Assembly (NCBI GenBank): GCA_016926755.1
Contig: JAFGNZ010000304.1
Location: 1-51,625 of the forward strand
Direction of reading: 5' to 3'
Source of the DNA: Myxococcaceae bacterium
Lineage (GTDB): Bacteria > Myxococcota > Myxococcia > Myxococcales > Myxococcaceae
Length of the DNA stretch: 51,625 nucleotides
The notes below the pieces were generated by a model. It did no database searches. It was not told the DNA's origin and was given only the letters and a program-made list of their open reading frames with translations. Made by a program: the position numbers and the translations under genes. Shown piece by piece: positions 32,509-36,703 of this stretch; position 1 is the first letter of the stretch, and every line of letters begins with the position of its first letter.

Positions 32509-33240
32509 GTGAGCCGCCTTTCCGAGGCGCGGGTGCTGGTGGTGGGGGCCGGGGGCCTGGGGTGCCCGGCCTCGCTCGCCCTGGCGCATGCGGGGGTGGG
32601 GCACCTGACGCTGGTGGATCCGGATCAGGTGGATGTGACGAACCTCCATCGCCAGCTCTGGCACCGCACCCCGGACGTGGGCCGGCTCAAGGCCGAGTCC
32701 GCCGCGGCGGGCCTGGCGCGCGCCTTCCCCGAGCTGAGCACCGAGGCGATCCCCGCGCGCGTCGACGCGGACAACGCCGAGCCCCTCTTCCGCGCGCATG
32801 ACGTCGTCATCGACGCCACCGATGGCACGGCCACCAAGTTCTTCCTGTCCGACGTGGCGGTGCTCACCGGCGTGCCGCTGGTGTACGGGGGCGTGCTGCG
32901 CATGCAGGGCCAGGCCATGCGCATCGATCCGGATGGGCCGTGCCTGCGTTGCCTCTACGAGGCGCCGCCGCCCCCGGACGCCGTGCCCACCTGCGCGCAG
33001 GCGGGGGTGCTCGGCTCCATGGCGGGGCTCGTGGGGGCGCTCCAGGCCCTGCTCGCGCTGGAGCGGTTGTCGGGCGCGGTGGGGGCCGCGCGTGGCGAGG
33101 CCGTGCTGCACGTCGTCGATGGCGTGGCGCTCGCGGGGCGGACCGTGCGCGTGTCCCGGGCGCTGGACTGCTCCAGCTGCGCTCCTGGCAGGAGGCCCAC
33201 GCTCGCTCCACCCGAGGAGGCCGCGCGATGCACGACGTGA
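32509..33240 (+). CDS. ThiF/MoeB-family E1-like adenylyltransferase, catalytic but N-terminally short
   Basis: 243 residues that activate the C-terminus of a ubiquitin-like sulfur carrier by adenylation. It has the Rossmann GAGGLG (13-18), VDPDQVD (Asp37), the TNLHRQ Arg48, Lys61, DATDG (102-106), two zinc pairs (CLRC 145-148; CSSC near 225) and the catalytic Cys162 in VPTCAQAG. It starts directly at the Rossmann strand and lacks the N-terminal RYxRQ arginine-finger helix of MoeB. The GTG start is set by GAGGAGGAG at 6 nt. It opens a tightly packed five-gene operon and overlaps the TusA-like gene by 13 bases. Confidence 0.9.
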   Translation: MSRLSEARVLVVGAGGLGCPASLALAHAGVGHLTLVDPDQVDVTNLHRQLWHRTPDVGRLKAESAAAGLARAFPELSTEAIPARVDADNAEPLFRAHDVVIDATDGTATKFFLSDVAVLTGVPLVYGGVLRMQGQAMRIDPDGPCLRCLYEAPPPPDAVPTCAQAGVLGSMAGLVGALQALLALERLSGAVGAARGEAVLHVVDGVALAGRTVRVSRALDCSSCAPGRRPTLAPPEEAARCTT

Positions 33241-33467
33241 CGGCGACGCTGGACATCACCCGCGAGGTCTGTCCGATGACCTACGTGCGCACCAAGCTCA
33301 AGCTGGAGTCGCTCGCGGTGGGCGCGGTGCTGGAGGTGCTCCTCAAGGGCGAGGAGCCGCTGAAGAACGTGCCTCGCAGCGCGCGGGAGGAGGGGCATGA
33401 GGTGCTGGAGCTGCAGGCCCGGCCGGATGGCTCGCACCGGCTGCTGCTCCGCAAGCAGGGGAGGTAG
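33228..33467 (+). CDS. TusA-family sulfur-transfer protein
   Basis: 79 residues with the small TusA fold. The conserved Cys15 in the VCPMT motif is the site that accepts a persulfide from a cysteine desulfurase or rhodanese and passes sulfur on; the usual CPxP has Thr in place of Pro. The ATG has GAGGAGG 7 nt upstream and lies inside the end of the preceding gene. Next to a ubiquitin-like carrier and its activating enzyme, a role as the sulfur donor for carrier thiocarboxylation is likely. Confidence 0.85.
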   Translation: MHDVTATLDITREVCPMTYVRTKLKLESLAVGAVLEVLLKGEEPLKNVPRSAREEGHEVLELQARPDGSHRLLLRKQGR

Positions 33468-33475
33468 ACACAGAC

Positions 33476-33748
33476 ATGGCGAAGATCCGAATCCCCACGT
33501 CCCTGCGCAGCTTCACCCGCAACCAGCCAGAGGTGATCGCTGGCGGCGCCACCGTGGGCGAAGTCCTGCGCCAGCTGGAGAAGAGCTTCCCGGGCATCGG
33601 CCCGCGCCTGCTCGACGACAAGGGCGCCGTGCGCCGCTACGTGAACATCTTCCTCAATGATGAGGACATCCGCTTCATGCAGGAGCTGGACACGCCGGTG
33701 AAGGACGCGGACTCCATCACCCTCATCCCGGCCATGGCGGGAGGGTAG
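33476..33748 (+). CDS. MoaD/ThiS/CysO-type ubiquitin-like sulfur carrier
   Basis: 90 residues of beta-grasp fold ending in the exposed Gly-Gly (PAMAGG) that is adenylated and converted to a thiocarboxylate. ThiS, MoaD and CysO share this; the neighbouring JAMM peptidase and the absence of molybdopterin or thiamine genes point to a CysO-like role in cysteine or another sulfur pathway. GGGGAGG lies 11 nt before the ATG. It is followed after 3 bases by the second E1-like gene. Confidence 0.88.
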   Translation: MAKIRIPTSLRSFTRNQPEVIAGGATVGEVLRQLEKSFPGIGPRLLDDKGAVRRYVNIFLNDEDIRFMQELDTPVKDADSITLIPAMAGG

Positions 33749-33751
33749 CCA

Positions 33752-34372
33752 GTGGCGCTGCGCGAGGATCAGATCCTTCGCTACTCGCGGCAGATCCTGC
33801 TCAAGGACGTGGGCGGGCGAGGGCAGGAGGCGCTGCTGGAGGGTGGGGCTCGGCTCGAGGGCTCGGGGCCCGCCGGGCTCACCGCCGCGGCCTATCTCGC
33901 CGCGGGCGGCACGCCGGTGTTGGCTTCGGAGGCGACGCTGGGCCCCGCCGCCGTGGGCTTCCTGGTCTCGGCCGAGGACGTGGGGCGACCGGCGGCCGAG
34001 GTGCTGGGCCGGGTGCTCCCGGAGGTGAACCCGGACGCGGCTCGCACCCCAGGCGGAGGCCGGCTCGCCGAGCTGCCCGCGGCCTGGAATGGCGAGGCGC
34101 CCTGGGTGGCGCTCGGGGGAGACGGGGCTCGGGGGGCGGTGGTGTTCCGCGGGCGCCAGGGGTGTGTGTGGTGCTTCGGCGAGACGGTGCGGACGCTGGG
34201 GCCTCCGCCCACGGGAGTGCTGGGCGTGGCGCTCGGTGCACTGGGGGCACTGGTGTTCCAGCGGCTCCTGCTCGGAATGGGGGAGCAGCTGGGAGGCCGG
34301 AGGCTGGCGGCTCCGGGGCAGGTGGCCGAGCTGGAAGTCCGCCGGTGCGCGAAGTGCAGTGGGCCGCGGTGA
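33752..34372 (+). CDS. Degenerate second E1-like (MoeB-family) protein with arginine-finger helix but no catalytic site
   Basis: 206 residues. The N-terminus LREDQILRYSRQ (residues 3-14) is the MoeB helix carrying the arginine that, in MoeB dimers, reaches into the partner's ATP site. The nucleotide-binding loop is worn to GSGPAG (37-42), the TNLxRQ, Lys and DATD elements are gone, and the crossover segment has no catalytic Cys (PPPTGVLG). Both zinc pairs survive (CVWC 138-141; CAKC 199-202). This pattern suggests a structural partner of the first E1 rather than decay. GTG start with GGGAGGG at 6 nt. Its stop overlaps the JAMM gene start in GTGA. Confidence 0.8.
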   Translation: MALREDQILRYSRQILLKDVGGRGQEALLEGGARLEGSGPAGLTAAAYLAAGGTPVLASEATLGPAAVGFLVSAEDVGRPAAEVLGRVLPEVNPDAARTPGGGRLAELPAAWNGEAPWVALGGDGARGAVVFRGRQGCVWCFGETVRTLGPPPTGVLGVALGALGALVFQRLLLGMGEQLGGRRLAAPGQVAELEVRRCAKCSGPR

Positions 34373-34833
34373 GGAGCGAGCTTCCCGAAGATTTGTCGGA
34401 CATCATCCGACACCTGGAGGCTGCGTACCCTCAGGAAGGCTGCGGCGTGATCCTGCGGGCCGAGCCTGAGGGGCCCTGGCGCATCCGGCCCCTGCTCAAC
34501 GCCTATGATCGTTACCACGCGGCCGATCCGGTGCGCTTTCCTCACACCTCTCGCACCGCCTACCTCTTCGAGCCCCGGGAGTGGCTCGCCCTCAACGAGG
34601 AGGCCGATGCTCGAGGCGAGCGGATTGCGTGTGTGTTTCACTCCCACGTGAATGGATCCGCGGACTTCTCCTCCGAGGATCGCGCCCAGGCCTCGCCTGC
34701 CGGGCAACCGCTACTCCCAGGCGTGTCGTACCTTGTGGTTGCCGTGGAGCAGGGCCGAGCCACCGTTGCGAGGCTTTTTCGGTGGCGTGACGGAGATTTT
34801 CGCGACCATCTGGTTCCACTGGGAGTGGAATGA
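34369..34833 (+). CDS. JAMM/MPN+ zinc metallopeptidase (Mec-like, M67 family)
   Basis: 154 residues with a complete JAMM site: Glu23 (PQEGCG), His91/His93 (HSH), Ser101 and Asp104 in the HSHVNGSADFSSED spacing. Bacterial members cut C-terminal adducts from ubiquitin-like carriers; in mycobacteria the Mec protein releases cysteine from CysO. The GTG at 34369 overlapping the previous stop is preferred over GTGs at 34345 and 34354 because it begins the family-like sequence. It closes the operon with carrier, donor and E1 genes, giving a full make-and-release cycle except the cysteine synthase. Confidence 0.9.
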   Translation: MRSELPEDLSDIIRHLEAAYPQEGCGVILRAEPEGPWRIRPLLNAYDRYHAADPVRFPHTSRTAYLFEPREWLALNEEADARGERIACVFHSHVNGSADFSSEDRAQASPAGQPLLPGVSYLVVAVEQGRATVARLFRWRDGDFRDHLVPLGVE

Positions 34834-35004: not shown

Positions 35005-35715
35005 ATGCCCAGCACGACTGGTTTTACGCTCTGGCTGACCGGCATGCACGGTACCGGTAAGAGCACGTATGCCGCCTACATCGCCGCACGGCTTCGTCAG
35101 GTAGGCCGCAATGTGGAGATCCTCGACGAGGGCGAGATCGGCGACGATCTCTGGCAGGGGCTCGGCGACAGCAAGGACGAGCGCTCCACGATCATCCGGC
35201 GCATGGGCTACGTCGCCCAGCTGCTGACGCGCAACAACGTGGCGGTGCTCGTGCCGTGCGTGAGCCCCTACAAGAGCGTGCGCGAGGAGAACCGGCGCGT
35301 CATCAGCAAGTACGTCGAGGTCTACGTCGACTGCCCCACCGAGAAGCTGATCGAGCGGGACACGACGGGCAAGTACAAGAAGGCGCTGAGCGGGGAGATC
35401 CCCAACTTCATCGGCATCACCGAGCCGTACGAGCCGCCCACCTCGCCCGAGGTGACGATCCACTCCGACACGGAGAGCGTGGAGGAGGGCGCGATGAAGA
35501 TCTTCCAGTCGCTGCTGGACCTGGGCCTGGTGACGCCCGAGGAGCTGAAGATCATCACCGGCAAGAAGATGAAGGCGCAGCCGCTGTCCAAGAAGGCGCG
35601 GCAGGCCGAGCCCAAGGCGGACAAGCCGGGCAAGGGCGCCAAGGCCCGTCCCGCGACGCGCGCGGCCCGCGTGGCCAAGCCCGCGGCCCCCAAGAAGGGC
35701 GCGAAGCGCAAGTAG
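35005..35715 (+). CDS. cysC: Adenylylsulfate (APS) kinase-like protein with basic C-terminal tail
   Basis: 236 residues. APS kinases phosphorylate adenylylsulfate to PAPS for sulfate assimilation and sulfation. Walker A is GMHGTGKST (13-21); the family's VYVDCP, ERD...KYKKALSGEI and PYEPP segments follow. The usual LDGD substrate motif reads LDEGE (40-44), so substrate preference may differ. About 45 C-terminal residues are Lys/Ala/Pro-rich (KKAPKKG-like), resembling a histone-tail-type nucleic-acid or partner-binding extension not present in standard CysC. It has its own strong promoter and a terminator, and follows the sulfur-carrier operon. The name cysC is by family; the LDEGE change is a caution. 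Confidence 0.82.
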   Translation: MPSTTGFTLWLTGMHGTGKSTYAAYIAARLRQVGRNVEILDEGEIGDDLWQGLGDSKDERSTIIRRMGYVAQLLTRNNVAVLVPCVSPYKSVREENRRVISKYVEVYVDCPTEKLIERDTTGKYKKALSGEIPNFIGITEPYEPPTSPEVTIHSDTESVEEGAMKIFQSLLDLGLVTPEELKIITGKKMKAQPLSKKARQAEPKADKPGKGAKARPATRAARVAKPAAPKKGAKRK

Positions 35716-35812: not shown

Positions 35813-36703
35813 ATGCTGAGCCCCGAGCGGATCCAGGCCCTGTGCGACTCCTCCCGCCCCAAGCTGGAGGCGATGCGCGCGGCGATCCGGGCGCACGGCT
35901 CGGCGCTGGTGGCGTTCTCCGGCGGGGTGGACTCCACGTTCGTGCTGAAGATCGCCGTGGAGGAGCTGGGCGAGCGGGCGCTGGCCGTCACCGCGCTGTC
36001 GGCCTCGGTGGCGCCGGAGGAGGAGCGGGAGGCGCGCGAGCTGGCGGCCCGCTTCGGCGCCCGGCACGAGGTGCTGACGAGCAACGAGCTGGCCAACCCC
36101 CAGTACGCGGCCAACCCCACCAACCGCTGCTACTTCTGCAAGACGGAGCTGTACGAGCTGTGTGAGGCCCGCCGCCAGGCGCTGGGCTACGCGGTGGTGC
36201 TGGACGGCTTCAACGCGGATGACTTCCAGGATCACCGGCCGGGACACAAGGCCGCCAGGGAGCACCAGGTGCAGTCGCCGCTGGCGCAGGCGGGGCTCAC
36301 CAAGGAGGAGATCCGCGCGTGGAGCCATCAGCTCGGGCTGCCCACGTGGGACAAGCCGCAGATGGCGTGTCTGGCCTCGCGGATTCCGTACGGCACCTCG
36401 GTGACGCGGGAGCGGCTGTTCCAGATCGCCCGCGCGGAGTCGGAGCTGCGCCGGCTGGGCTTCCGGCAGTTCCGTGTGCGCTACCACCACGAGGTGGCGC
36501 GCCTCGAGCTGGCGGCGGAGGAGTACGAGCGCTTCCTGTCGGCCGACGTGCGCCAGCAGATCAACACGGCGCTCAAGGCGCTGGGCTTCCAGTTCGTCGC
36601 GGTGGACCTCGAGCCGTTCCGCTCGGGCCGGATGAACGAGGCGGCGGGCGTGGTGAAGCCGGCGGCGCCCTCGCAGGGCTTCGCGCTGCCCGTGGTGAGC
36701 TGA
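35813..36703 (+). CDS. larE: LarE-type ATP-dependent sulfur transferase
   Basis: 296 residues of a PP-loop enzyme: SGGVDST (36-42) adenylates a substrate carboxylate, then sulfur is delivered. LarE makes the pincer (NPN) nickel cofactor for lactate racemase and related enzymes by sacrificing sulfur. Here Cys106, Cys109 (RCYFCK) and Cys186 (MACLASR) are all present, the three-Cys set associated in some LarE proteins with an iron-sulfur cluster. No larB, larC or lactate-racemase gene is in the window, so the partner genes are elsewhere or the role differs. AGGAG 6 nt before the ATG. Location after sulfur genes fits. Confidence 0.88.
   Translation: MLSPERIQALCDSSRPKLEAMRAAIRAHGSALVAFSGGVDSTFVLKIAVEELGERALAVTALSASVAPEEEREARELAARFGARHEVLTSNELANPQYAANPTNRCYFCKTELYELCEARRQALGYAVVLDGFNADDFQDHRPGHKAAREHQVQSPLAQAGLTKEEIRAWSHQLGLPTWDKPQMACLASRIPYGTSVTRERLFQIARAESELRRLGFRQFRVRYHHEVARLELAAEEYERFLSADVRQQINTALKALGFQFVAVDLEPFRSGRMNEAAGVVKPAAPSQGFALPVVS

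Follow-up and report, generated by a model that had tools for sequence, protein, structure and literature searches.

A candidate two-gene E1 in the sulfur-carrier operons of myxobacteria, with the arginine finger on a partner that has lost its active site

Described systems and the present locus

The route from symmetric bacterial E1 enzymes to the ubiquitin, SUMO and NEDD8 E1s, which have one active and one dead half, is known mainly from its end product. In the homodimers MoeB, ThiF and MoeZ the division does not exist: one MoeB chain holds the fold, the residues of the ATP site and an arginine which acts in trans. This trans action has been described for R11 of ThiF and R14 of MoeB, and has likewise been modelled for the yeast ct6A dehydratase Tcd1-Tcd2, whose two E1-like subunits form a heterodimer, the arginine finger of one serving the active site of the other (PMC13139853). 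According to the same source the finger arginine is non-essential in MoeB and ThiF, the R59A substitution in Tcd1 lowers ct6A by 26% only, and TcdA has no finger (PMC13139853).

Asymmetric E1s are known from eukaryotes (PMC12355090), and one has been described in bacteria, namely BilD of the Bil defence system, in which a single chain contains both an active adenylation half and an inactive one (PMC11354881). To describe the pair reported below as the first asymmetric E1 in bacteria would thus be wrong. In Mycobacterium tuberculosis the carrier CysO is converted by MoeZ to its thiocarboxylate and coupled by CysM with O-phosphoserine, after which Mec sets cysteine free (PMC3227635). The relevant sections of Iyer et al. 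(2006) describe operons that add to ThiS/MoaD, E1 and JAB genes either cysteine synthase (type 4c) or SirA/TusA plus adenylylsulfate kinase (type 4e), and place Anaeromyxobacter under type 4b, an E1 with rhodanese plus JAB; types 4c and 4e are given there with one E1, and those sections mention no split E1 (PMC1779556).

The window analysed here is a stretch of 51,625 nucleotides from a Myxococcaceae bacterium (contig JAFGNZ010000304.1, assembly GCA_016926755.1). Its operon has an E1 in two pieces, termed A and B. Myxobacteria appear to have split a carrier E1 into a catalytic protein without the assisting arginine and an inactive partner that retains this arginine and not much besides, making the pair a bacterial counterpart of the two-part SUMO and NEDD8 activating enzymes. 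As in SAE1/UBA2 and NAE1(APPBP1)/UBA3, active and inactive ThiF-like halves occupy separate chains, known here from their sequences; as in the SAE1/UBA2-type enzymes, the active half is without the finger helix and the inactive half has it. Unlike those enzymes, A and B have no catalytic-cysteine domain, ubiquitin-fold domain or E2, and their carrier donates sulfur. Unlike MoeB, ThiF and MoeZ, the pair has its features spread over two genes, with the ATP-site residues in A, the trans arginine in B, and neither protein possessing the other's part.

The GG-ending carrier and the JAMM peptidase recall CysO-CysM-Mec, as does a CysM-type synthase in several relatives, but TusA takes the place of the MoeZ rhodanese domain, the E1 is in two pieces, and the window operon contains no CysM. 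Tcd1-Tcd2, unlike A and B, is eukaryotic and modifies tRNA rather than a carrier, and Tcd1 keeps a near-complete domain. BilD differs in its single chain, its Cys domain and E2, and its role in defence rather than sulfur transfer. We found no account, in the literature searched, of an asymmetric E1 encoded by two genes in a sulfur-carrier pathway of bacteria, of a finger-only subunit, or of any split bacterial E1, the survey of the E1-like superfamily by Burroughs et al. lying outside the search and possibly mentioning one.

Organization of the operon

Genes for A, TusA, the carrier, B and the JAMM peptidase form an operon of five genes in which neighbours overlap or lie no more than 8 bases apart (Table 1). 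TusA overlaps A by 13 bp and the JAMM gene overlaps B by 4 bp. An earlier note, made from the letters of the window, had described five tightly packed or overlapping genes, and both the coordinates and the gene identities agree with it. The closest NCBIfam model to the carrier is SAMP1, whose score of 59.3 bits falls just short of the cut-off (60).

Table 1. Features of the sulfur-carrier operon and its downstream neighbours (window coordinates)
Feature	Position	Strand	Basis
A, catalytic E1 half, ThiF-like, 243 aa, GTG start, without finger helix	32509..33240	+	PF00899 and MoeB alignment
Codon of A Cys162 (position of MoeB Cys187)	32992..32994	+	MoeB alignment, sequence
TusA-like sulfurtransferase, 79 aa	33228..33467	+	PF01206, E=1e-19
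MoaD/ThiS-like sulfur carrier, 90 aa, C-terminal AGG	33476..33748	+	PF02597, E=9.6e-17
B, inactive E1 half, 206 aa, with finger helix	33752..34372	+	N-terminal ThiF match only; predicted fold ThiF/MoeB/SAE1-like
RYSRQ motif of B	33779..33793	+	finger Arg13 = codon 33788-33790; Arg invariant in 39 non-redundant B
JAMM/Prok-JAB peptidase, Mec-like, 154 aa	34369..34833	+	PF14464, E=2.9e-18; HxH...SxxD motif in sequence
APS kinase (CysC), conserved downstream neighbour	35005..35715	+	TIGR00455, 162.3 bits, above cut-off
LarE, conserved downstream neighbour	35813..36703	+	TIGR00268, 320.1 bits, above cut-off

Protein A

ThiF (PF00899) is the only Pfam family above its cut-off in A. The match scores 210.7 bits (cut-off 28.1) and runs from profile position 16 on only, while B matches positions 1–43 only, with 22.6 bits, which is under that cut-off. 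Protein A therefore begins past the finger helix, at the Rossmann strand, as A proteins do across the Myxococcota, and B is recognisable mainly by that helix. Aligned to Escherichia coli MoeB, A has R48 at R73, K61 at K86, D105 at D130 and C162 at C187, and both pairs of Cys are present. The active halves UBA2 and UBA3 match the A sequence in the stretch past the finger helix.

None of the 66 A proteins of the family has any residue at MoeB positions 11–15. The residues corresponding to MoeB D62, N70, R73, K86 and D130 are kept in all 32 proteins of a non-redundant set (less than 70% identical, with other families added and the decayed G036 and G038 copies left out). The description of A in the earlier note, with catalytic residues, Cys162 and zinc pairs but no RYxRQ helix, is thereby upheld. 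A hidden start restoring the finger was considered and rejected; the upstream reading frames of the family A genes contain no RYxRQ. A carries neither a catalytic-cysteine nor a ubiquitin-fold domain, and there is no E2 among the operon genes. An assignment to phage-defence E1s was also rejected, PADLOC giving generic E1-E2 matches for A alone (best 3.6e-24) and nothing for the carrier, B or the JAMM peptidase, with E2 absent.

Two peculiarities of A sequences may be recorded. A proteins of the Corallococcus/Myxococcus type (L011–L036, L071–L073) have a conserved His-rich N-terminal extension, for example MHGHDTDHHPRIPHASR, where the finger helix would be. Many A proteins have a Cys 2 or 3 residues before the stop (C-terminus in the window, 33205–33240); in the window this Cys stems from the overlap with the ATG of TusA and hence may be a by-product of that overlap.

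Protein B

A profile built on B finds ThiF and MoeB chains (1.5e-13 and 1.9e-10), identifying B as a divergent relative of both. The AlphaFold2 model of the window protein (pLDDT 90.8) resembles ThiF (Z 17.4), MoeB (17.2) and the inactive halves SAE1 (16.8) and APPBP1 (16.2). R13 of B corresponds to MoeB R14 in the alignment to E. coli MoeB; on the model it falls on MoeB R14 and ThiF R11 by the aligned starts, provided that there is no gap. The glycine loop and the positions of R73, K86, D130 and C187 have been lost.

In a set of 39 non-redundant B proteins, from which truncated and decayed copies were left out, every member has Arg at the R14 position, whereas the commonest residue reaches no more than 15% at each of the R73, K86 and D130 positions. 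The mean top-residue frequency is highest over MoeB 5–30 (0.71), falls to 0.15–0.31 over 61–190, and rises again to 0.47 over 191–215. B had been credited by the earlier note with the RYSRQ helix, with loss of the catalytic set and with both zinc pairs. The first two hold across these proteins, and the complementary pattern in A and B goes well beyond what chance would give. The zinc pairs hold in the window but not as a family feature, since three of the four Cys positions are kept in 67–72% of the set, His frequently replaces the fourth or it is missing, and none of these positions survives in B proteins of the smallest size.

Outside the window family, in other families of the Myxococcota, the length of B varies between about 230 aa and, at the lower end, about 95–123 aa. 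In the smallest proteins the finger helix survives, together with the Y48-L49-G53 helix and a last one. The model of a 123-aa B (AlphaFold2, pLDDT 86.4) aligns over its full length to Uba4, ThiF, MoeB and APPBP1, with Z of 11–13.

Such a short and variable protein might be suspected of being a decaying paralogue or a functionless pseudogene: its active site is missing and both length and sequence vary widely. Its frames are open throughout the window family and in other families, however, dN/dS between intact neighbours is 0.17–0.26, and the finger Arg is invariant. Together with the co-occurrence described next, where no intact A stands without B, these observations led us to reject this explanation, which we regard as very improbable.

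Co-occurrence and co-decay

B was searched for in the 96 genomes of the GTDB family of the window, the loci were read, and a search for A was added. The order A-TusA-carrier-B-JAMM recurs across genera. Both A and B occur in 83 genomes and neither in 11; the remaining two have a single gene (A in G013, B in G083), and in both a contig end adjoins or cuts the operon. Wherever the contig allows the check, none of the 96 genomes has an intact A without B. The earlier note had proposed that A and B should always co-occur and should lose complementary motifs. Co-occurrence is borne out wherever contigs permit a decision, as is complementary loss, the helix being missing from every family A and the catalytic set from the B proteins with their constant Arg. 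Against the idea it would have counted a B without A, or one that had lost its helix; these were found in two genomes only, and there the active site of A has gone as well.

These genomes, G036 and G038 (loci L068 and L069), belong to the genus of the window. Their B frames are without the helix; in A the N70, R73, D130 and C187 positions are replaced, and that of K86 also in one of the two. A Pfam search found no TusA anywhere in either genome. The dN/dS of A between them is 0.45, compared with 0.13–0.20 for intact neighbours. To judge from these sequences the E1 pair looks dead, and with the helix, the A active site and TusA all gone, loss of one half accompanies loss of the other. The carrier with its GG, the JAMM peptidase, APS kinase and LarE persist in both, the carrier under strong constraint (dN/dS 0.07).

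In G084 and G085 TusA lies outside the operon, and A has lost the Cys162 position while keeping its ATP-site residues, a hint that Cys162 works with TusA.

B might instead work with a different protein, for example the housekeeping MoeB, or act alone as a regulator or chaperone of the carrier, leaving A as a homodimer. MoeB-type proteins, present in every genome, are possible partners, and the contact between A and B is one that we infer. The operon position, the co-occurrence and the co-decay nevertheless tie B to A, and the MoeB of the window genome has a finger helix of its own (RYRRH). We consider this possibility improbable.

Proposed mechanism

The reading that we prefer, and consider probable by analogy with the trans-acting arginines of known E1s, is that A and B pair up as a heterodimeric E1 acting on the carrier of the operon, with a single ATP site completed by the arginine of B. 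The division of labour proposed in the earlier note is in this respect supported, contact, arginine reach and need for B being the parts that go beyond observation. The reading draws on gene content, complementary loss, co-occurrence, co-decay, the predicted fold of B and the operon context. The only working adenylation site would be in A, comprising the glycine loop, D37, D39, N45, R48, K61 and D105. B would lend its N-terminal helix across the dimer, so that Arg13 reaches the phosphates of the ATP bound by A, an arrangement suggested by the trans arginines of ThiF and MoeB and by the Tcd1-Tcd2 model. The adenylated carrier would then be sulfurated by TusA, probably via Cys162 of A, to give a thiocarboxylate. 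A CysM-type enzyme, encoded in the operon of several relatives but not of the window, would convert this to carrier-cysteine, from which the JAMM peptidase would free cysteine.

Alternatively, the A:B complex may form with B mainly structural, capping the dimer face of A or docking TusA and JAMM, while A adenylates finger-free like TcdA. As the finger is reported to be dispensable in MoeB and ThiF, a purely catalytic role for that of B is not certain, and we keep this alternative as unlikely but worth bearing in mind. The second rise in conservation, away from the finger, would suit it, as would the B-JAMM fusions found in L044 and L067. It accords poorly with a conservation peak that lies in the helix and with an Arg that never varies, finger-only B proteins included. 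The same fusions, with the A-TusA fusions of L066 and L109, support a shared complex.

Besides the reported dispensability of the finger in MoeB and ThiF, the small effect of Tcd1 R59A and the lack of a finger in TcdA, two observations count against the preferred reading. The carrier or TusA gene is absent from some operons, and carrier and JAMM persist in G036 and G038 despite the dead-looking E1 pair. Eleven of the operons have no carrier gene between TusA and B (L042, L044, L045, L052, L056–L062); ThiS/MoaD-type genes occur elsewhere in those of their genomes that were tested.

Taken further, the pair may be an independent bacterial heterodimeric E1 in which the sole catalytic contribution of B is the finger, pared down in some lineages to an indispensable finger protein of 95–123 residues. 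We lean towards this fuller claim, with less assurance than towards the heterodimer. Because the subunits are small and separate, they allow a direct test of what the arginine finger does, a matter in dispute.

Pathway and operon context

A gene for cysteine synthase lies between B and JAMM in ten loci (L043, L046, L048, L053, L066, L110–L112, L115 and L116), and APS kinase and LarE lie downstream in most related loci. The window operon has no such synthase; six synthase-like matches elsewhere in the genome are 27–39% identical to the operon type. The synthase in relatives, with APS kinase and LarE, makes CysO/CysM/Mec-type cysteine synthesis the likely pathway, with TusA standing in for the rhodanese domain and the E1 divided between two genes; in the case of the window, the CysM step is presumed. 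Gene B, which falls below the Pfam cut-off and is present in most genomes of the window family, thereby acquires a likely function, carrier activation in a cysteine pathway. LarE is the sacrificial sulfur transferase of nickel-pincer cofactor synthesis; here it is a conserved neighbour of a sulfur-carrier operon.

Distribution and origin

A phylum-wide profile search recovered the A/B split from additional families at the level of the order, the class and the phylum Myxococcota. The finger helix is absent from A in all 44 myxobacterial loci checked; regular-expression hits in L128, L137 and L163 arise by chance away from the finger position, and in L018 and L150 the contig ends inside A. B has the helix in 42 of the 44, and L155 and L167 reach the contig end before B. 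The 35 related loci of other groups have a full-length E1 with finger and glycine loop, and a MAG labelled "Deltaproteobacteria" (L200) has a split pair of its own.

A locus from the Planctomycetota (L172:3902-5710) encodes E1-TusA-E1', a gene order that matches A-TusA-B; each of its two E1s is full length and has both the finger and the active site. It is plausible that this arrangement represents the state before the split. Eleven loci of Nitrospirota type (L171, L176, L179, L182–L184, L187, L189, L191, L195, L205) have two full-length E1s flanking the carrier gene, often with cysteine synthase.

In a quick tree A forms one clade (SH-aLRT 93) and B another (98), and the A family is placed among bacterial CysO-operon E1s, so that the asymmetry looks independent of eukaryotic E1s. 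In a more careful tree 73% of the bootstrap replicates recover A as a clade, and the B sequences form long branches. The L172 sequence E_L172_2 groups with B at a support of 35/0, and a tree uniting A and B, as a single duplication would give, is not rejected (p-AU 0.297). The pair offers a second, seemingly independent case of an asymmetric E1, with candidate stages side by side: full E1, tandem full E1s around TusA (L172), split with a near full-size B, split with a finger-only B, and decayed pair.

One record, titled Comamonas sp. KCTC 72670 (L129, BNCN01000004.1), has a Myxococcus-like operon with a 77% identical A and is probably mislabelled or contaminated.
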